Shown in pieces: positions 6,967 through 15,576 of a stretch of 64,000 bases of DNA. The first letter of the stretch is position 1; every line of letters starts with the position of its first letter. Below the pieces are notes generated by a model. It made no database searches, was not told where the DNA came from, and saw only the letters and a list, made by a program, of their open reading frames with translations. The position numbers and the translations under genes are program-made. The stretch is from Sphingobacteriaceae bacterium (GTDB lineage: Bacteria; Bacteroidota; Bacteroidia; Sphingobacteriales; Sphingobacteriaceae). The stretch is from positions 1-64,000 of the forward strand of contig JAGIAD010000011.1 of assembly GCA_017745075.1 (NCBI GenBank). The letters run 5' to 3'.

Positions 6967-8217
6967 TTATTCTACTGCCGCCCTGAACATCAATGCACCA
7001 ACAGTTAAATTGGTACGGGTATCAACCAAAATGGCAGAGCCGTTTGCGCGGTTATCGTCGTATAAATCAAATGCCAAAGCATCTGCAGTTTTCACAATCA
7101 CACGGCCGATATCATTCAGTTTAAACTCGTCTGCAGCATGTTTGTCCAGCGTGTTGATGTCTACCCTATGCAGAATTTCGCTGATTTTACATTTAGTGAT
7201 TTTACTGTTATGCTGAATGTTGTACATCATTGAGGTATCTAATGCACGGGTATCCATCCAGCAAAGATCGGCCTCAATCAGTTTTGTTTCCTGTGGCAGA
7301 GCCGATGCGTTTACAATGGTATCGCCACGACTGATGTCTACATCATCTTTTAAGTGAATAATAACCGACTGACCAGCGTGTGCAGCATCGAGCGCTTCGT
7401 CGAAAAACTCGATCTTCTCAATAACAGAGCTTGCTCCTGAAGGCAGAACCGTAACTTTATCATTTAAATTAAAGGTTCCGCTAAGTACCCGACCGGCATA
7501 ACCACGGTAATCGTGCAGTTCTTCTGTTTGCGGACGAACCACCCATTGTACAGGCATACGCGCCAGCAGCGATTGGTCTAAGTGGTCGGTATCTACCTTT
7601 TCTAAGAAATGTAACAAACTTTCACCTTCATACCAATTCATGTTTTCAGATACCTGTACTACATTATCTCCTTTCAACGCACTCACCGGAATGTAGGTTA
7701 CATCGGCCAGTTTTAATTGCTGGGCAAGGATTTTATATTTCTCGATAATTGAATTGTAAACAGTTTCGCTGTAATCAACCATATCCATTTTGTTGATACA
7801 AACTACCACGTGTTTAATGCCCAACAAAGAAACGATATAAGAGTGACGGATGGTCTGTTCTACCACACCATTACGGGCATCGATTAAAATAATGGCCAAA
7901 TTGGCGGTAGATGCCCCTGTAACCATGTTCCTGGTATATTGAATATGGCCAGGTGTATCTGCAATGATAAATTTGCGTTTTTCTGTCTGAAAATATTTAT
8001 AGGCAACATCAATGGTAATGCCCTGCTCGCGCTCTGCCCTCAAACCATCGGTAAGGATAGCTAAATCTATTGTTCCGTCGTCATTTTTGCGGTTAGAGCG
8101 CTGTAAAGCTTCTAATTGATCGGCTAAAATAGAATCTGTATCGTATAACAAACGGCCAATTAAGGTACTTTTACCATCATCTACGCTGCCTGCTGTGAAA
8201 AATTTTAATATGTTCAT
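6967..8217 (-). CDS. cysN: Sulfate adenylyltransferase large subunit (GTPase)
   Basis: Regulatory GTPase subunit of ATP sulfurylase; couples GTP hydrolysis to formation of adenylylsulfate (APS) from sulfate and ATP, with CysD. The G1 loop GSVDDGKST is near residue 10, followed by the EQGITIDVAYKYF switch region, DTPGH and NKMD. EF-Tu-like beta-barrel domains follow from about residue 225. 416 aa; shorter than the E. coli protein, and there is no fused APS kinase (CysC) domain. Last gene of the sulfate reduction operon, 141 bp after cysD. The gap holds short inverted AGTATCAAG/CTTGATACT pairs. Confidence 0.95.
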   Translation of the reverse strand: MNILKFFTAGSVDDGKSTLIGRLLYDTDSILADQLEALQRSNRKNDDGTIDLAILTDGLRAEREQGITIDVAYKYFQTEKRKFIIADTPGHIQYTRNMVTGASTANLAIILIDARNGVVEQTIRHSYIVSLLGIKHVVVCINKMDMVDYSETVYNSIIEKYKILAQQLKLADVTYIPVSALKGDNVVQVSENMNWYEGESLLHFLEKVDTDHLDQSLLARMPVQWVVRPQTEELHDYRGYAGRVLSGTFNLNDKVTVLPSGASSVIEKIEFFDEALDAAHAGQSVIIHLKDDVDISRGDTIVNASALPQETKLIEADLCWMDTRALDTSMMYNIQHNSKITKCKISEILHRVDINTLDKHAADEFKLNDIGRVIVKTADALAFDLYDDNRANGSAILVDTRTNLTVGALMFRAAVE

Positions 8218-8358: not shown

Positions 8359-9264
8359 TTAAAAATATCCTCCCTTTTTCCTGTCTTCCATTGCCGCTTC
8401 AGAAACCTTATCGTCCATACGGGCGCCACGTTCTGAGATTTTTGATGCACTGATTTCAGCAATAATATCATCGATCAAAAATGCATCTGATTCTACTGCT
8501 GCCGTGCAAGACATATCGCCTACTGTACGGAAACGAACCTGCTTGCGCTCAACCACATCTTCATCGTCCATATTTAAAAAAGGCGAAGCAGCCATCAATT
8601 GTCCATTACGGGTAATGCAATCGCGTTCGTGCGAGAAATAAATACTTGGCAGTTCTATTTTCTCCCTGCGGATATAGTTCCAAACATCTAATTCTGTCCA
8701 GTTACTGATTGGGAATACCCGTATATTTTCACCTTTGTGGATCTTTCCGTTATAAATGTTCCAAAGTTCAGGGCGCTGACGTTTTGGATCCCACTGGCCA
8801 AATTCATCCCTTACGGAGAAAATACGTTCTTTGGCTCTCGCTTTTTCTTCATCTCTGCGTGCACCACCGATACAGGCATCAAAACCGTATTTCGCAATGG
8901 TATCGAGCAATGTTACCGTTTGCAGTGCATTTCTACTTGCATTTTTACCAGTCTGCTCTACTACTTTACCCTGATCGATAGATTCCTGCACAGAACCAAT
9001 AATTAATTTTTCGCCAATTCTTTCTACCATTTTGTCGCGGTAAATAATGGTTTCTTCAAAATTATGGCCTGTATCTATGTGTACCAGGGGAAAAGGAAAT
9101 TTCCCCGGGCGAAAAGCTTTTTCTGCCAAACGAACTAAAGTAATCGAATCCTTTCCACCCGAAAATAACAGTGCCGGTTTTTCAAACTGCCCCGCTACTT
9201 CACGTAAAATGTGAATGGCCTCGGCCTCCAGTTCATCTAAATAGTCAAAATTATATGTGCTCAT
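8359..9264 (-). CDS. cysD: Sulfate adenylyltransferase small subunit
   Basis: Catalytic subunit of the CysDN ATP sulfurylase. The PP-loop ATP site LLFSGGKDSI sits near residues 32-41, and the GGARRDEEKARAKER and HKGENIRVFPISNWTELD blocks are typical of CysD. 301 aa, the standard length. Begins MSTYNFDYLDELEAEA. Downstream of cysH; the 250-bp gap between them is mostly a palindromic repeat, so the gene may still be in the operon. Confidence 0.96.
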   Translation of the reverse strand: MSTYNFDYLDELEAEAIHILREVAGQFEKPALLFSGGKDSITLVRLAEKAFRPGKFPFPLVHIDTGHNFEETIIYRDKMVERIGEKLIIGSVQESIDQGKVVEQTGKNASRNALQTVTLLDTIAKYGFDACIGGARRDEEKARAKERIFSVRDEFGQWDPKRQRPELWNIYNGKIHKGENIRVFPISNWTELDVWNYIRREKIELPSIYFSHERDCITRNGQLMAASPFLNMDDEDVVERKQVRFRTVGDMSCTAAVESDAFLIDDIIAEISASKISERGARMDDKVSEAAMEDRKKGGYF

Positions 9265-9514: not shown

Positions 9515-10216
9515 TCACGAAGCGGCGTGTAAACCACATTCTTTTTTACTCTGGTCTTCCCACCACCATCTTCCTGCTCTGAAATCTTCGCCCGGTTGTA
9601 CTGCTCTTGTACATGGGGCGCATCCTATGCTCGGGAAACCCTTATCATGCAGCGTATTGTACACAATATTGTTTTCTTTGATATAGGTTTTCACATCATC
9701 CAGCGTCCAATGGAATATAGGATGAAATTTAACCAATTGGTTGCCTTCGTCCCATTCTAGATCGTGCATATCCTCACGGTTGGCACTCTGATCGGCCCTG
9801 ATGCCGGTTATCCAGATTTCGTTCCCTTTTAATGCTCTTTTTAAGGGTTCGATTTTACGGATGTAACAGCATTCTTTTCTATTTTCTACGGATTCGTAAA
9901 AGCTGTTAGGGCCTTTAGTATTTACCATATCCTGCAACAGCTCATTTTGCGGATAATAGGCATGAATGGGTTTGTTATAAATTTCGAGGGTTCGGTTCCA
10001 AACGTAATAGGTTTCGGGAAACAAGCGCCCGGTTTCTAAGGTAAAAACCTTGATGGGAATGTTATTGGCAAAAATCAAATGGGTAATCACCTGGTCTTCC
10101 CAGCCAAAGCTGGTCGAAAATATGATACGACCGGCATATTGTTCTGCCAAAAACTTCAATTTATCAATTGTACTCAAACCTGCCAGCGCTGCTTTTATCT
10201 CTTCTAGGTTATCCAT
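9515..10216 (-). CDS. cysH: Adenylylsulfate (APS/PAPS) reductase, iron-sulfur type
   Basis: Reduces activated sulfate to sulfite. The PP-loop-like block FSTSFGWEDQVI is near residue 35. Two Cys pairs, KECCYIRK and GCAPCTRA, match the [4Fe-4S] motif that marks plant-type/bacterial APS reductases, and the C-terminal KKECGLH holds the catalytic Cys. With no cysC in the operon, APS is the likely substrate. 233 aa from the ATG at 10216. A GTG one codon earlier overlaps the upstream stop (TAGTG), so translation is probably coupled to the fusion gene upstream. Confidence 0.93.
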   Translation of the reverse strand: MDNLEEIKAALAGLSTIDKLKFLAEQYAGRIIFSTSFGWEDQVITHLIFANNIPIKVFTLETGRLFPETYYVWNRTLEIYNKPIHAYYPQNELLQDMVNTKGPNSFYESVENRKECCYIRKIEPLKRALKGNEIWITGIRADQSANREDMHDLEWDEGNQLVKFHPIFHWTLDDVKTYIKENNIVYNTLHDKGFPSIGCAPCTRAVQPGEDFRAGRWWWEDQSKKECGLHAAS

Positions 10217-10218
10217 CA

Positions 10219-11730
10219 CTAAATTAATTTTAAAATAAACATAATTACACTGCGCAAACTCACAATCATTACAATAATGCCCACAGCTACCATAATGGTT
10301 TTTGCCGAAATTTTATTCGATACTTTTGCGGCAATCGGCGATGCAATTGCACTACCAAGAATCAAGCCTAAAACAGCTTCCCAGTGTTTGCCCCCCAGCA
10401 TGGTAAAAAAGGTTAGTGAACTTAAAGTGGCAATAAAAAAACGGCTGATTTTTACCGTACCCAGTGAAAACAAAGGGTGACGGCCGCCGGCAATTAAGCT
10501 CGATAAAACAATCGATCCCCAGCCACCACCAAAAGCGGCATCGATAAAACCGCCCATGAAGCCCAACAATCCAATTTTTTTGATTTTTTGATCGGCTTTT
10601 TTTCTTTTAATGTTAAAAGCTTTCATTAAAATAACTGCACCTAAAAACAAGGTATAAACCGCAACAACCGGCTTAACATAGCTGCTATAGTGCTCCAGCG
10701 AAGATAAAATATAAGCTCCCAATACCGCACCAACAATGGCAGGGAGGATCAGTATTTTAAAAAGTTTCCAGTTTACGTTGCCCATGCGGTAATGCATCCA
10801 GCCGGCAATACCATTGCTCATTACTTCAGAAATGTGTATGGCCATACTTGCCGAAGCAGGAGGTAAACCCATGGCAAGTGAAAAAGAAGCCGTTGTAACC
10901 CCGTACGACATGCCTATTGCGCCATCAATCAGGGCAAATAAAAAACCTGCACCTAAAAACCAGTAGAAAAATGGATCAACATTAATTAAAAATGTCTTAA
11001 ACTCAGGTTCGGTATTCCAAAGGGAAAGCCCGATTGCTCCGATCAATAAAACCGATGCCACCCAGATTAACCATTTGATGTTCCTTTCAGCAAAGCTTTT
11101 TTTAGGGTTGATCAGGCTTTGGGTAACCTTGTTCAGTTTTTTAACCTTTGCTGAAAAATCGCCGTTTAAGGTCTGGCGCAAAGTACTCATGTTCTGTAAG
11201 GTTTCATCCAGTTCGGCTGGTAAACCTTCGTTTAAAATCTGTTTTAAACGTTTGGCGATGGTTGGCGATTTACCATTGGTAGAGATGCCAATCTTTAAAT
11301 CACCTTTCTGTACGATGGATCCCAGATAAAAATCGCAAAGTTCGGGTTTATCGGCCACATTGATCAGTAGACCACGCTCTCGCGTTACCTTTCTGATCTC
11401 TTCATTTAAAATCTGGTTATTGGTTGCAGCAAAAACGATATCAATATCATTTAAATCATCTATATCAAAACTTTTCTGCTTAACCTTTATCAACGGATAA
11501 TCTTTAACAAGTGCATAAACCTCTGGCGATACCATTTCTGCCACTACAGTAATGGTGGCACTGTGGCTATTATTTACAATTGCCGTTAATTTCTCCAGTC
11601 CAATATTGCCTGCTCCAATTAATAATGTACGCAGCTTGTTCAGCTTTACAAAAACTGGAAAAAGCTGGTTACCTTTTTCTTCTTCAGAAAAAGATGTTGC
11701 ATTATCAGGTTGGCTAGGCAATACTTGCAT
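10219..11730 (-). CDS. Fusion: precorrin-2 dehydrogenase/ferrochelatase (Met8/CysG-N) + TauE/SafE (TSUP) transporter
   Basis: 503 aa with two distinct halves. Residues ~25-205 are a Met8/CysG-N module: NAD loop LLIGAGNIGLEKL, AATNNQILNEEI, NVADKPELCDF (with the expected catalytic Asp) and ISTNGKSPTIAKRLKQ. It would oxidise precorrin-2 to sirohydrochlorin and insert iron, giving siroheme. Residues ~220-503 are a polytopic membrane protein of the TauE/SafE family, with duplicated Gly-rich segments GAIGMSYGVTTASFSLAMG and GGFIDAAFGGGWGSIVLSS; known members move sulfite, sulfonates or sulfate. The fusion ties cofactor synthesis and an anion transporter to the Sir-CobA pathway; the transported ion is inferred to be sulfur-related. 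Overlaps cobA by 17 bp. Confidence 0.9.
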   Translation of the reverse strand: MQVLPSQPDNATSFSEEEKGNQLFPVFVKLNKLRTLLIGAGNIGLEKLTAIVNNSHSATITVVAEMVSPEVYALVKDYPLIKVKQKSFDIDDLNDIDIVFAATNNQILNEEIRKVTRERGLLINVADKPELCDFYLGSIVQKGDLKIGISTNGKSPTIAKRLKQILNEGLPAELDETLQNMSTLRQTLNGDFSAKVKKLNKVTQSLINPKKSFAERNIKWLIWVASVLLIGAIGLSLWNTEPEFKTFLINVDPFFYWFLGAGFLFALIDGAIGMSYGVTTASFSLAMGLPPASASMAIHISEVMSNGIAGWMHYRMGNVNWKLFKILILPAIVGAVLGAYILSSLEHYSSYVKPVVAVYTLFLGAVILMKAFNIKRKKADQKIKKIGLLGFMGGFIDAAFGGGWGSIVLSSLIAGGRHPLFSLGTVKISRFFIATLSSLTFFTMLGGKHWEAVLGLILGSAIASPIAAKVSNKISAKTIMVAVGIIVMIVSLRSVIMFILKLI

Positions 11731-12484
11731 ATTGTTTAATTAATTCTTTAAATGACGGATGTAATGACACAACTTCTCCAAAAATTAATAAAGCTGGCGC
11801 TTTAATATTTTCCTGGAGTACTAAATGTTCTATGGTTTCAACTACACCTACAACCAATCTTTCATCTTCTGCCGATCCGTTCTGCACCACTGCAGTTGGT
11901 AAATTGTGTTTGCCCGCAGCTTTAAAAATCTCTACAATTTTTGGCAGTTTTTTTAGGCCCATAAGCACTACCACTGTTGCATTGGATTGTGCTGCCTGGT
12001 AAATATCGGCAGATACTTCTCCGGATGTCGTAGTACCTGTAATTACCCAAAAGCTTTCACTCATGCCCCGGTGCGTAACCGGGATCTGCTGTAAACCCGG
12101 CACCCCGATCGAACTCGAAATACCCGGAATAACACTTACCGGGATGCTGTAAGATGCAGCATAATCCAGCTCCTCGTATCCCCTGCCAAAAACAAAAGGA
12201 TCGCCACCTTTTAAACGTACTACGTGGCCGTAGTTCAAGGCATAATCGATCATTAGTTTATTAATGGTATCCTGGGGATAAGAATGCTCTCCCGAACGTT
12301 TTCCTACATAAACTTTAATGGCTTCAGCAGGAGCATATTCTAATAAAGCCTCGTTGGTTAAAGCATCGTACAATACCACATCAGCAGTTTGCAACGCTTT
12401 AACGCCTTTTAATGTCAATAAATCAGGATCTCCGGGGCCAGCGCCTAATAGGGTAATTCTTGATTCTTTGTGTTGATTAACCAT
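11714..12484 (-). CDS. cobA: Uroporphyrinogen-III C-methyltransferase (SUMT)
   Basis: Methylates uroporphyrinogen III at C2 and C7 with SAM to give precorrin-2, the precursor of siroheme for sulfite reductase. All family motifs are intact: GAGPGDPDLLTLKG, VVRLKGGDPFVFGRGYEE, PGISSSIGVPGLQQIPVTHRG and VVLMGLKKL. 256 aa, a stand-alone CobA length. It lies between sir and the Met8/TSUP gene, so siroheme synthesis is embedded in the operon. The product feeds the Met8 domain encoded next. Confidence 0.95.
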   Translation of the reverse strand: MVNQHKESRITLLGAGPGDPDLLTLKGVKALQTADVVLYDALTNEALLEYAPAEAIKVYVGKRSGEHSYPQDTINKLMIDYALNYGHVVRLKGGDPFVFGRGYEELDYAASYSIPVSVIPGISSSIGVPGLQQIPVTHRGMSESFWVITGTTTSGEVSADIYQAAQSNATVVVLMGLKKLPKIVEIFKAAGKHNLPTAVVQNGSAEDERLVVGVVETIEHLVLQENIKAPALLIFGEVVSLHPSFKELIKQYASIA

Positions 12485-12578: not shown

Positions 12579-14669
12579 TCATTTCACCAATACAGCTCTT
12601 TTCTCTTTAATCTGATTTAAAAACTGATTGGCTTCTTCAAAGTATTTCTGTGCAAATTCAGCAGTTGGCTCATTTTTATTGATCTGTAAAACCAGGTCAG
12701 AGAAATTAGTCGGCAAATTAAATTCACCGGTTTCTACATAATGGTTATCAAATTCACGGATCACGCCAAACTGTGTGCTGCTGTTTATCCCTTTATCCAA
12801 TAATAAAGACTTTGCAGCGCTTACAAAAGTGCTGTAGGTATGGTAAATGGCATCAGCATATGCACCTTTATCTAAGTTTTGTTTTGCCCAATCGAATTTC
12901 TCATCAGCTTCCAGCAATAAAGTGGCCACTAAATCGATCACCACTCCGGCACATTCGCCCACACCAATAGCTGTTACAAACTCTTCCACATGGCCCCAAT
13001 CTACAAATTCTTCTGTCTGCAGGTTCGTTAAATCAGCCAATGGTTTCAGTAACTGGTAAAAATAGTCTTTACCTTTTCTATCATAATATTGATGAAAGCT
13101 TTCATCTTGCAGGTTATTGGTCTTAAAATCGTTTAAAAGATAGTGAAGAACACTTGTTGCCCTTTTTGATGGTACTTTAATTACACGTTCAGCTACACGG
13201 CCAACACCGTTACCAACGGTACCACCTCCCAGCATTACCTGTACAGCGGGAACAACTTTTCCTTCAGCTTTTACCGAACTTCCGTGAAAACCGATCTCTG
13301 CCAAACCATGCTGACCGCAGGAGTTCATGCAACCACTTATTTTGATTTTGATGTTTTTCTCGTAAATAAACTCCGGGAAATCCGTATAAATTACCTCTTC
13401 CAGCACTTCAGCAAGTGTCATAGAGTTCGAAATACCCAAATTACAGGTATCAGTACCCGGGCAAGTGGTAATATCAGCTAAGCTATCAAAACCGGCTGTG
13501 GTAAACCCGATTTTATTCAGGGCCACATACAATGAAGGTAAAGCTTCCTTGCGCACAAACTTTAACAATAAACCCTGGTTTTGAGTAATTCTGATTTCAT
13601 CAGCTACATATAACCTGATGGCATCAACAAAAGCCCTTGCTTTATCGGTTTTAATATCGCCTACCTGAACTTTTACGTACACGCCATAAAACCCGGCCTG
13701 TTTTTGCTCAACTACATTGGTAGCTAACCAGTGTTTATAATGGGCTTCGTTTAATATTTCTACCGCCGGGTATTCCTGCTCCAGAGGTAAAGCAGGCTGT
13801 GGAACGGTATTCAGATCTATTTTAAAAGTTTTTACTTTATTGGCAATGCGCTCCTCAGCAACCAAACGCAGTACTTCTTCCAGCCCCAGTTTCTGAACCA
13901 GGTATTTTAAACGGGCTTTGTTACGGTTACTGCGTTCGCCATAACGATCGAAAACGCGGAGAACAGATTCGGTAAAAGGAATCAGCTGATCTTCTGGCAA
14001 AAATTCGTGAACGGCGTTTGCAAGAAAAGGCTGTGCACCTAAACCGCCTGCAAATAACACTTTGAATCCACGCTCGCCATTTTCATTGATTTTAGGAATA
14101 AAACCTAAATCGTGAATATAGCTGAATGCAGTATCCCTATCGCTCGAAGAAAATGAAATTTTAATTTTGCGTCCCATTTCCTGACAGATCGGGTTACGCA
14201 AGAAGTAGGCAAATACCGCCTGTGCGTAAGGAGAAACATCGAAAGGTTCTTCCGCATCGATGCCCGAATTTGGAGAAGCGGTTACATTACGTACCGTGTT
14301 TCCACAGGCTTCGCGAAGGGTAATATCATCCTGTTCCAGTTTTGCCCAAAGCTCTGGTGTACGGTCTAAACTCACATAATGGATCTGGATATCCTGACGG
14401 GTTGTTAAATGCAGGTTGCCACTACCGTACTCATCGGCAATATCGGCAATACGCAATAACTGTTTAAAAGTCACCTTACCAAAAGGCAGTTTAATCCGCA
14501 CCATTTGTACACCAGGTTGTCTCTGACCGTAAACACCGCGGGCCAAACGAAGGCTCCTAAACTTTTCGTCGTGGATGGTTCCATCTCTGAAAGCTTTAAT
14601 CTTATTCTCTAAATCGATGATGTCCTGCTCGACGATCGGATTTTCGAGTTCTGTTCTGAAACTTTGCAT
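12579..14669 (-). CDS. Assimilatory sulfite reductase (siroheme / 4Fe-4S) with C-terminal extension
   Basis: 696 aa. Two nitrite/sulfite reductase half-domains: the first has QPGVQMVRIKLPFG and GSGNLHLTTRQDIQIHYV. The siroheme/4Fe-4S motif is split as TTCPGTDTCNLG (Cys-x5-Cys, near residue 404) and SGCMNSCGQHG (Cys-x3-Cys, near 448). Sulfite rather than nitrite is inferred from the cys operon. The last ~140 residues are not part of the core enzyme and include YADAIYHTYSTFVSAAKSLL, which resembles HEPN-type helices; its role is unknown. No flavoprotein CysJ is present, so ferredoxin or another donor is likely. First structural gene after the cysteine leader and terminator. Confidence 0.93.
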   Translation of the reverse strand: MQSFRTELENPIVEQDIIDLENKIKAFRDGTIHDEKFRSLRLARGVYGQRQPGVQMVRIKLPFGKVTFKQLLRIADIADEYGSGNLHLTTRQDIQIHYVSLDRTPELWAKLEQDDITLREACGNTVRNVTASPNSGIDAEEPFDVSPYAQAVFAYFLRNPICQEMGRKIKISFSSSDRDTAFSYIHDLGFIPKINENGERGFKVLFAGGLGAQPFLANAVHEFLPEDQLIPFTESVLRVFDRYGERSNRNKARLKYLVQKLGLEEVLRLVAEERIANKVKTFKIDLNTVPQPALPLEQEYPAVEILNEAHYKHWLATNVVEQKQAGFYGVYVKVQVGDIKTDKARAFVDAIRLYVADEIRITQNQGLLLKFVRKEALPSLYVALNKIGFTTAGFDSLADITTCPGTDTCNLGISNSMTLAEVLEEVIYTDFPEFIYEKNIKIKISGCMNSCGQHGLAEIGFHGSSVKAEGKVVPAVQVMLGGGTVGNGVGRVAERVIKVPSKRATSVLHYLLNDFKTNNLQDESFHQYYDRKGKDYFYQLLKPLADLTNLQTEEFVDWGHVEEFVTAIGVGECAGVVIDLVATLLLEADEKFDWAKQNLDKGAYADAIYHTYSTFVSAAKSLLLDKGINSSTQFGVIREFDNHYVETGEFNLPTNFSDLVLQINKNEPTAEFAQKYFEEANQFLNQIKEKRAVLVK

Positions 14670-14693
14670 ATATGTTGTTAGCTTTATTCAAAA

Positions 14694-14719
14694 AATGCTT
14701 CCCTTTACCGAGAAGCATT
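14694..14719 (-). terminator. Attenuator terminator between Cys leader and sulfite reductase
   Basis: On the minus strand AATGCTTCTC-GGTAAA-GGGAAGCATT forms a 10-bp stem (one G-U) with a 6-nt loop, followed at once by a T-run (CATTTTTTG). It lies 37 nt after the leader stop and 24 nt before the sir ATG, the position expected for a transcription attenuator. Confidence 0.82.
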
Positions 14720-14755
14720 CCATATTTTATACTTAAAATTATCTGTAGGCTCCTG

Positions 14756-14827
14756 TTAATGCGTTATACAACAACAGCAAATCATTTGCTTAGCGATTAA
14801 TTGGTTAAGTGTAAAATTTAAGTTCAT
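14756..14827 (-). CDS. Leader peptide with four consecutive cysteine codons
   Basis: A 23-codon ORF (ATG at 14827, TAA at 14758-14756) that reads ...QMICCCCITH at its C-terminus: Cys17-Cys20 are encoded TGC TGT TGT TGT. Cysteine is the end product of the pathway encoded downstream. The ORF is followed by an intrinsic terminator and then by sir. A TAnnTTTG -7 box ends only 4 nt before the ATG, so the mRNA is predicted to be leaderless or nearly so. A short AGGAGC segment just past the stop (14749-14754) can pair with GCTTCT in the 5' arm of the terminator (14711-14716), a candidate antiterminator. Another hairpin, AGCAAATGATTTGCT (14776-14790), overlaps the first Cys codons. Function inferred by analogy to amino-acid attenuators; polycysteine leaderless ORFs of this kind are known from mycobacteria. 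Confidence 0.82.
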   Translation of the reverse strand: MNLNFTLNQLIAKQMICCCCITH

Positions 14828-14831
14828 GCGC

Positions 14832-14869
14832 CAAATATATAAAGTATATAGGAATAGTCGTAATTTATT
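14832..14869 (-). promoter_or_regulatory. Promoter/operator of the sulfate reduction operon
   Basis: A 38-bp element 33/38 identical to 4955-4992. On the minus strand TATATTTG (14832-14839) fits the Bacteroidota -7 consensus. The expected -33 TTTG is missing and its place is taken by CGACTATTCCTATATAC, which is probably a regulator site. The Rrf2 gene 260 bp upstream is the obvious candidate regulator. Confidence 0.72.
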
Positions 14870-14910
14870 GTGAAAAATTTTACGAAATCTTGTTAAATCC
14901 TTCCCCACAT

Positions 14911-14980
14911 CGTCATTTCGAGCGAAGTGCATCGCAGTCGAGAAATCTATAAATTAAATAGAAATCTATAAATTAAATCT
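14911..14980. repeat. Interspersed repeat fragment and short direct repeat
   Basis: CGTCATTTCGAGCGAAGTG is a half-copy of the palindromic repeat family. It is followed by two direct copies of GAAATCTATAAATTAAAT. It occupies the gap between the Rrf2 gene and the cys promoter; the rest of the gap holds the hairpin at 15073-15101. Confidence 0.65.
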
Positions 14981-15129: not shown

Positions 15130-15576
15130 TTACAAATTAACGATACCGATTTTCAGGTTATCCTCACGGCCAATAACATCAGCGATGCTGGTTTCGGTTA
15201 AAACCTTAAGCGTAGCATCCCTAACATCAATAAAAGCACTTCTGATGCCACAAGTTTTCTCATCTACACACTCATCACATTTGTGGTAAAAGTTTAGACT
15301 TGCACATGGCACCATGGCGATAGGTCCATCGGTTACACGCATTACATGTACCAACAAAATCTCTTCAGGTTTTTTGTTTAAGCTGTAACCGCCTCCAGCC
15401 CCCTTTTTACTGTATAAAAAGCCTGCATTGCGGAGATCGAGCAGAATTTGCTCAAGGAATTTTTTCGGGATATGCTCCTCCTCTGCAATTTTCGAAATCT
15501 GCATTGGTGGTTTATCTAAATTTTTACCGAGCGCAACAAGCGCTTTAATGGCATATTTTGTTTTTTTGGACAGCAT
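15130..15576 (-). CDS. Rrf2-family transcriptional regulator (candidate regulator of the cys operon)
   Basis: 148 aa with the Rrf2 winged helix at residues 1-80: MLSKKTKYAIKALVALG, ISKIAEEEHIPKKFLEQIL and the wing SKKGAGGGYSL. Three cysteines in a CASLN - KCDECVDEKTCGIR segment (residues ~92-112) match the region that holds Fe-S ligands in IscR-type members. Known relatives include CymR, a cysteine-metabolism regulator of Firmicutes. Location just upstream of the sulfate reduction promoter, same strand, supports a role in that regulon; this is inference. A TTTAGGAATATGATAG segment on the minus strand (around 15648-15663) resembles part of the shared 38-bp element and could be an autoregulatory site. 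Confidence 0.9.
   Translation of the reverse strand: MLSKKTKYAIKALVALGKNLDKPPMQISKIAEEEHIPKKFLEQILLDLRNAGFLYSKKGAGGGYSLNKKPEEILLVHVMRVTDGPIAMVPCASLNFYHKCDECVDEKTCGIRSAFIDVRDATLKVLTETSIADVIGREDNLKIGIVNL

Follow-up and report, generated by a model that had tools for sequence, protein, structure and literature searches.

The sulfate-reduction operon in the analysed window (the whole stretch of 64,000 nt of DNA from a Sphingobacteriaceae bacterium) is very probably controlled by a ribosome-mediated transcription attenuator, which would sense the charging of tRNA-Cys and, as its codons suggest, of tRNA-Met. This prediction draws on sequence comparison, in which a short open reading frame (ORF), Cys and Met codons, a terminator, an alternative pairing with some covariation, and the spacing of these parts were found to recur. 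The original prediction had proposed an attenuator that responds to cysteine. The attenuator reading is supported as a prediction; the codons point to Met besides Cys.

The promoter box, the 23-codon ORF with four Cys codons and the terminator that had been described on the minus strand were all confirmed, and the terminator stem was found to be 11 bp long (Table 1). The leader ATG starts 4 nt past the box; with a box at -12 to -5, its A would be position +1. The terminator stem occupies 14720-14693 and the T-run 14695-14690. Segment 2, just past the leader stop, could form six base pairs with segment 3 in the 5' arm of the terminator, one of them G-U. When both strands of the 64-kb window were searched for Cys/Met clusters in ORFs no longer than 75 codons, the single match was the leader ORF, read from an earlier in-frame start. 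The leader ORF is more than a chance occurrence, because it is the sole match of this kind in 64 kb and because its anatomy recurs in 132 of 196 regions under a rule blind to Cys. An Rfam search of the whole window gave no match at the gathering level, and thus no member of a riboswitch or T-box family.

Table 1. Features of the leader locus and its neighbouring genes (positions in the window; Pfam matches are given under support)
Feature	Position	Strand	Support
-7 promoter box TATATTTG (TAnnTTTG type)	14839-14832	minus	sequence
Leader ORF MNLNFTLNQLIAKQMICCCCITH, 23 codons plus stop, ATG at 14827	14827-14756	minus	equivalent ORF in 132/196 unique regions
Putative control codons, four consecutive Cys codons (TGC TGT TGT TGT)	14779-14768	minus	
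In-frame Met codon, two codons ahead of the Cys run	14783..14785	minus	Met is the second enriched residue
Segment 2 (AGGAGC), just past the leader stop, proposed antiterminator 5' strand	14754-14749	minus	
Segment 3 (GCTTCT), terminator 5' arm, proposed alternative partner of segment 2	14716-14711	minus	
Intrinsic terminator, 11-bp stem, -14.2 kcal/mol, run of six T	14690..14720	minus	
sir, nitrite/sulfite reductase, first regulated gene, ATG at 14669	12579..14669	minus	PF01077, PF03460
cobA-type tetrapyrrole methylase	11714..12484	minus	PF00590
Met8-like siroheme synthase fused to TauE/SafE permease, one ORF	10219..11730	minus	PF13241, PF14824, PF01925
cysH	9515..10219	minus	PF01507; told from cysD by order and earlier naming
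cysD	8359..9264	minus	PF01507; told from cysH by order and earlier naming
cysN	6967..8217	minus	PF00009 (CysN-type GTPase); name from order and earlier naming
Rrf2-family regulator gene, upstream of the leader	15130..15576	minus	PF02082

Two further elements were observed upstream of the leader. A dispersed repeat of about 40 nt lies upstream of the promoter (14909-14950); a 351-nt query containing it matched the own genome at 41 places, almost all of them at the repeat. A motif like CTACTAnTTCnTATA is located just upstream of the -7 box (14844-14857 in the window, and equivalent positions elsewhere). By eye, it is seen again both in genomes that have the leader and in those that do not, and it could be an operator, perhaps for the Rrf2 regulator.

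In the proposed mechanism, transcription would start at or next to the leader AUG, judging from the spacing of the box, and a ribosome would translate the leader. When Cys (or Met) is scarce, the ribosome would stall in the Cys/Met cluster, and segment 2, whose start lies some 8-14 nt beyond the final Cys codon, would stay free. It could then pair with the 5' arm of the terminator, and RNA polymerase would read into sir. When both Cys and Met are plentiful, the ribosome would reach the stop codon and cover segment 2; the terminator would form, and transcription would end near 14690.

Conservation was analysed in 231 regions upstream of sir, comprising 80 named loci, 150 regions from further genomes and the window, and including a few named loci outside the Sphingobacteriaceae (e.g., L084 and L085); 196 regions were unique. 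The Cys-blind rule took the first start codon (ATG or GTG) no more than 25 nt from a -7 box (TAnnTTTG, TAnnTTTA or TAGATATTTG) located 125-182 nt before sir, and accepted ORFs of 12-40 codons; its distances and boxes were chosen after inspection of the sequences. A conserved Cys ORF with a terminator had been expected upstream of sir orthologues in Pedobacter and relatives. This expectation was borne out: a leader ORF was found in 132 of the 196 unique regions. The leader is not universal, and 64 regions have none by this rule, including those of Sphingobacterium, Olivibacter and several Pedobacter. Among the named loci, carriers were found in Pedobacter, Mucilaginibacter, Parapedobacter and Albibacterium, among others; L011/L103 and L119 have lost the usual start or frame. 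Nearly all leaders contain a Cys codon (128/132), and 121 contain at least two; seven have one Cys and four have none. The leader peptides diverge, and greedy clustering at 65% nucleotide identity gave 34 representatives, 30 of which keep Cys. An intrinsic terminator, a hairpin followed by T residues, was detected after 125 of the 132 leaders (median -13.5 kcal/mol); the other seven lack one in that scan, and some of them show a hairpin in a separate look.

Classical attenuators of the trpL, hisL and leuL type consist of a short leader ORF with codons for the end product, an intrinsic terminator and an alternative antiterminator. The first two parts were found here, namely a short ORF with end-product codons between the promoter and the first gene, and an intrinsic terminator between the leader and the first gene.

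The codon content of the 132 leaders is highly biased. Relative to base composition, the enrichment is 4.8-fold for Cys and 4.6-fold for internal Met, the two highest values of all residues; these are also the only residues enriched more than twofold, and the remaining peptide diverges. Among the 34 representatives, which share less than 65% identity, the counts in the three frames are 82/44/14 for TGY and 51/5/2 for internal ATG, and a Met is found within three residues of a Cys in 25. The ATG counts by frame near the Cys run are 79/2/4 in 29 ORFs from other families, which were selected on Cys alone. TGT and TGC are used equally in the 34 representatives (40 and 42, respectively), and therefore the amino acid itself seems to be what is selected. 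The natural reading is that the leader would sense both sulfur amino acids, Cys and Met; the Met codons may alternatively have a role in RNA pairing or in restarts.

The pairing of AGGAGC with GCTTCT that had been predicted for the window is possible and has comparative support; in the window alone, it is no better than in shuffled sequences (p 0.615). A fold of the window forced to hold the antiterminator reaches -7.3 kcal/mol and is less stable than that with the terminator (-15.5 kcal/mol). It is the cross-species comparison that argues for the putative antiterminator of the window. When the duplex was compared with shuffles sequence by sequence, four of 27 family representatives reached p<0.05 (Fisher 4e-5), which is a modest signal. 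In the same 27 representatives, the mean pairing energy was -11.0 kcal/mol with the own terminator arm vs -9.3 kcal/mol with foreign arms; a median of 31% of the foreign arms paired as well as the own arm.

Covariation was examined in two alignments, from which the more divergent sequences had been left out beforehand: A2 with 39 of the 45 Mucilaginibacter-type sequences and A1 with 59 of the 74 Pedobacter-type sequences. Six additional leaders differ in their hairpin arms and belong to neither. In A2, five pairs between the leader end and the 5' side of the terminator are formed in 85.6% of the cells. The antiterminator covariation score (0.242) was reached by none of 500 shuffles, which ignore relatedness, and by no slid control. 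The score derives mainly from pair 95:138, with 12 two-sided changes; the other four pairs have none, and a count of one pair with two-sided changes was reached by 398 of the 500 shuffles. The terminator shares column 138 and covaries with its partner there, with a score above all but two of 500 shuffles. A middle segment shared by two helices should covary with both partners, as column 138 does. In A1, the partner GCTTC does not vary, and covariation is therefore hardly visible in the Pedobacter-type leaders.

The position and pairing of segment 2 also point to an antiterminator in the Pedobacter-type leaders and in other families. The motif RGRRGY occurs past the stop codon in 43 of the 74 Pedobacter-type leaders (shuffle mean 11.7, maximum 19); it is absent in the other 31, several of which, by eye, use another register or the pairing GRCTG x CRGTC. 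Among 42 Pedobacter-type leaders with RGRRGY, the distance from the last Cys to the start of segment 2 is 13 nt in 32. In other families, the antiterminator helix has p<0.05 in 23 of 52 leaders (Fisher 3.5e-17, with the leaders treated as independent), and the distance from the last Cys to segment 2 has a median of 11 nt in these 23 cases and is 8-14 nt in 18 of them. The helix is not significant in the other 29 leaders, and the pairing starts are scattered (1-23 nt). A ribosome stalled on the last Cys would just free segment 2, and a ribosome at the stop codon would cover it. With this footprint, the spacing of segment 2 fits that of a classical attenuator. A mutually exclusive antiterminator, the third part of such a system, was found at the family level; in the window alone it is not significant.

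In the own genome, the narrow covariance model R1 matched the sir leader locus (E 6e-18) and gave four weak matches. The best weak match (E 0.26) was rejected as a Cys leader; by eye, it is a branched-chain leader. Because of the narrowness of the model, further Cys leaders may be present in this genome. A branched-chain leader peptide, MTVQNNILTTGLATNVAGNVVLLPVILISLLLADILLGKKMGSF, with a terminator was observed at G000:C29:174001-174120 (L371), where it precedes a gene that by eye reads like a branched-chain aminotransferase. The own genome thus seems to use attenuation for other amino acids too. Upstream of homoserine dehydrogenase, no leader of the sir kind was found within 700 nt in 30 loci of the own genus; this search gave two weak hits (L384 and L400).

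Leaders of this kind also occur in numerous families of the class outside the Sphingobacteriaceae. A sir query matched 109 of the 396 genomes of a class sample, weak matches included. Left out were 18 own-family genomes, 13 weak and probably non-orthologous matches, G657, G499 (broken) and G615; the remaining 75 genomes, with G567 and G569 added, gave a set of 77 genomes from 24 other families. A Cys/Met-cluster ORF was found within 700 nt upstream of sir in 27 of the 77 regions, by a criterion that was set after example peptides such as MKNTSKQNFSFHMCMCMCMCCCMRGDSGDLYSS and MNTIQNICGRFYRCCAMCCCTSA had been inspected. The identical rule gave two matches on the reverse strand of these regions and, over 20 shuffles, 0.65 matches on average (maximum 3). 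The other 50 regions have no leader by this rule; with a limit of 1800 nt, a Cys/Met-cluster ORF was found in 38 of the 77, some of them doubtful. Of the 56 leaders scanned for a terminator outside the family, 52 have a hairpin with a T-run behind them; some of the 56 are also doubtful (e.g., those of G682 and G516, and the first of G487).

The next gene, where it is not sir, encodes an aldo/keto reductase or a peroxiredoxin. Some poly-Cys ORFs, for which no convincing terminator is seen, precede cysH or homoserine dehydrogenase, and one such cluster also holds a PLP enzyme of Cys/Met metabolism. This downstream gene set fits control by both Cys and Met. Three of the poly-Cys ORFs were left out of the mechanism, as they have no convincing terminator or lay out of range. 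The short ORFs of G706 (L352) and G692 (L344), ahead of cysH, have seven Cys codons directly before the stop, and the one scanned for a terminator, that of G706, lacks a convincing one; the two might represent another type of Cys leader. The ORF of G420 (L369), ahead of homoserine dehydrogenase and sir, ends in YMCCCCCMCMC, and no terminator was found within 200 nt of it.

Two leaders in series, with a hairpin after each, were found in 16 genomes of six families; these genomes were selected for this arrangement, and members of the same family are not independent. Both hairpins are -12 kcal/mol or better in 14 of the 16, and the first is weak (-8.6 kcal/mol) in G567 and G568. A -7 box lies ahead of the first cluster in all 16 genomes, and none of them has a further box in the stretch from the first terminator to the second cluster. 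The simplest reading is that tandem leaders would form one transcript with two successive checkpoints. The original prediction had looked to Pedobacter and its relatives; the system extends well outside the family of Pedobacter, and is sometimes doubled. A class-wide attenuator of the Bacteroidota that responds jointly to the charging of Cys and Met tRNAs, with two complete serial units under one promoter in at least six families, is moderately favoured. If this is true, RNA polymerase would have to pass two successive sulfur amino acid checkpoints before it reaches the operon.

The start of the leader transcript may be inferred from the promoter spacing. Of the 74 Pedobacter-type leaders, 73 have their ATG exactly 4 nt past the box, and the TAnnTTTG box of F. 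psychrophilum spans -12 to -5 according to passages of PMC9723704; the A of the ATG would therefore be at +1. The Pedobacter-type leader transcript is probably leaderless. The same passages give leaderless mRNAs as only 5.5% in F. psychrophilum, and describe Flavobacteria as having no Shine-Dalgarno sequences. Among 45 Mucilaginibacter-type leaders, 8 have this 4-nt distance between box and ATG, and in most the distance is longer; leaderlessness would therefore not be essential.

The 4-nt spacing also bears on another possible mode of action. The leaderless contiguous-Cys ORFs of M. smegmatis act by translation attenuation, as stated in sections of PMC13236596 and PMC9031893; a leaderless poly-Cys ORF could likewise control the next gene here, with a hairpin that does not terminate transcription. 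Such a translational mode is very improbable for these leaders. A hairpin with a T-run follows most of them within and outside the family (125/132 and 52/56), and the first hairpin of the tandem arrangement precedes a second leader, not an adjoining structural gene. Moreover, Flavobacteria would offer no Shine-Dalgarno sequence for a hairpin to hide, going by the portion of PMC9723704 on this point. Transcription attenuation is the preferred reading.

The downstream genes were confirmed by Pfam as the predicted operon sir-cobA-met8/TSUP-cysH-cysD-cysN. The cysH and cysD products both match PF01507 (PAPS-reductase type), and these two genes were told apart, and cysN was named, by order. The gene just upstream of the leader encodes an Rrf2-family regulator, which is possibly a separate control of initiation; such a gene is also just upstream in 40 of the 80 named loci. 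The presence of the leader in the named loci does not follow that of a neighbouring Rrf2 gene, which was found in 25 of 48 loci with a leader vs 15 of 32 without. Outside the Sphingobacteriaceae, an Rrf2 match is rarer in the fetched regions with a leader (5/38) than in those without (12/39). Leader and Rrf2 control may coexist. It was also considered that the Rrf2 regulator controls the operon, and that the leader is a decaying or minor element. The frequent Rrf2 neighbour, its rarity beside leaders in other families and the many genomes without a leader would agree with this; however, the leader is found with and without Rrf2 in the named loci, and the codon, terminator and covariation evidence suggests that it is under present constraint. 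Control by Rrf2 with a decaying or minor leader is likewise very improbable. It is also very improbable that the Cys/Met-rich nascent chain arrests the ribosome by binding a metal (Cu-like) or by sensing thiol redox, and not through tRNA charging: Met/Cys motifs are known as metal-binding and patterns such as MCMCMCMCCCM resemble them; however, the peptide diverges apart from the enriched Cys and Met, the number of Cys codons varies widely, and the downstream genes of the window are those of sulfate reduction.

The predicted attenuator resembles the classical trpL, hisL and leuL type in its leader ORF, its terminator and an antiterminator that begins just past the control codons. It differs in having Cys and Met control codons and a sulfate-reduction operon, in being probably leaderless (Pedobacter-type), and in the two serial units of 16 genomes from other families. 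Mycobacterial leaderless poly-Cys short ORFs were reportedly described by Canestrari in 2020. They are also covered in parts of PMC4633059 (Shell 2015), PMC13236596 and PMC9031893, the last two of which speak of translation attenuation. The present leaders resemble them in contiguous Cys codons ahead of sulfur genes and in an AUG ORF that, in the Pedobacter type, may be leaderless; the terminator, the alternative pairing and the Met enrichment are different. A system of the mycobacterial type would act at translation and have no intrinsic terminator, whereas 125 of 132 leaders here are followed by terminator hairpins.

Cys leader peptides were also predicted in Actinobacteria by Seliverstov 2005 (PMC1262725), where no conserved or obvious terminators were found. 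These have Cys runs near the stop of short ORFs before cys operons, as here; a terminator hairpin is found after 125 of 132 leaders in the present set. Within the phylum, leader-peptide attenuation has been noted in Flavobacterium psychrophilum, with cysteine not named in the passages concerned (PMC9723704), and leader-like short ORFs in long 5' UTRs are mentioned for Bacteroides thetaiotaomicron in part of PMC7366714. The words 'sulfate' and 'sulfite' do not occur in the main text of PMC9723704. These systems are similar in phylum and in having leader peptides or leader-like ORFs ahead of genes; unlike the present leader, no cysteine or sulfur operon is named for them in those passages. A literature search that covered few subscription papers found no Cys or Cys/Met attenuator of Bacteroidota, and no leader-peptide attenuators in tandem.

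These leaders mix Cys and Met control codons with a terminator, whereas the earlier actinobacterial predictions were without one. The Pedobacter-type leader could serve as a simple reporter of leaderless translation, since it is probably leaderless itself and belongs to a phylum where Shine-Dalgarno sites are hardly used. In the tandem leaders, two ribosome-mediated attenuators would act one after the other, which would allow a direct test of response sharpening. For the Bacteroidota, a concrete and testable mechanism of RNA-level control is proposed, in which sulfate reduction as a whole would be switched by its end products.
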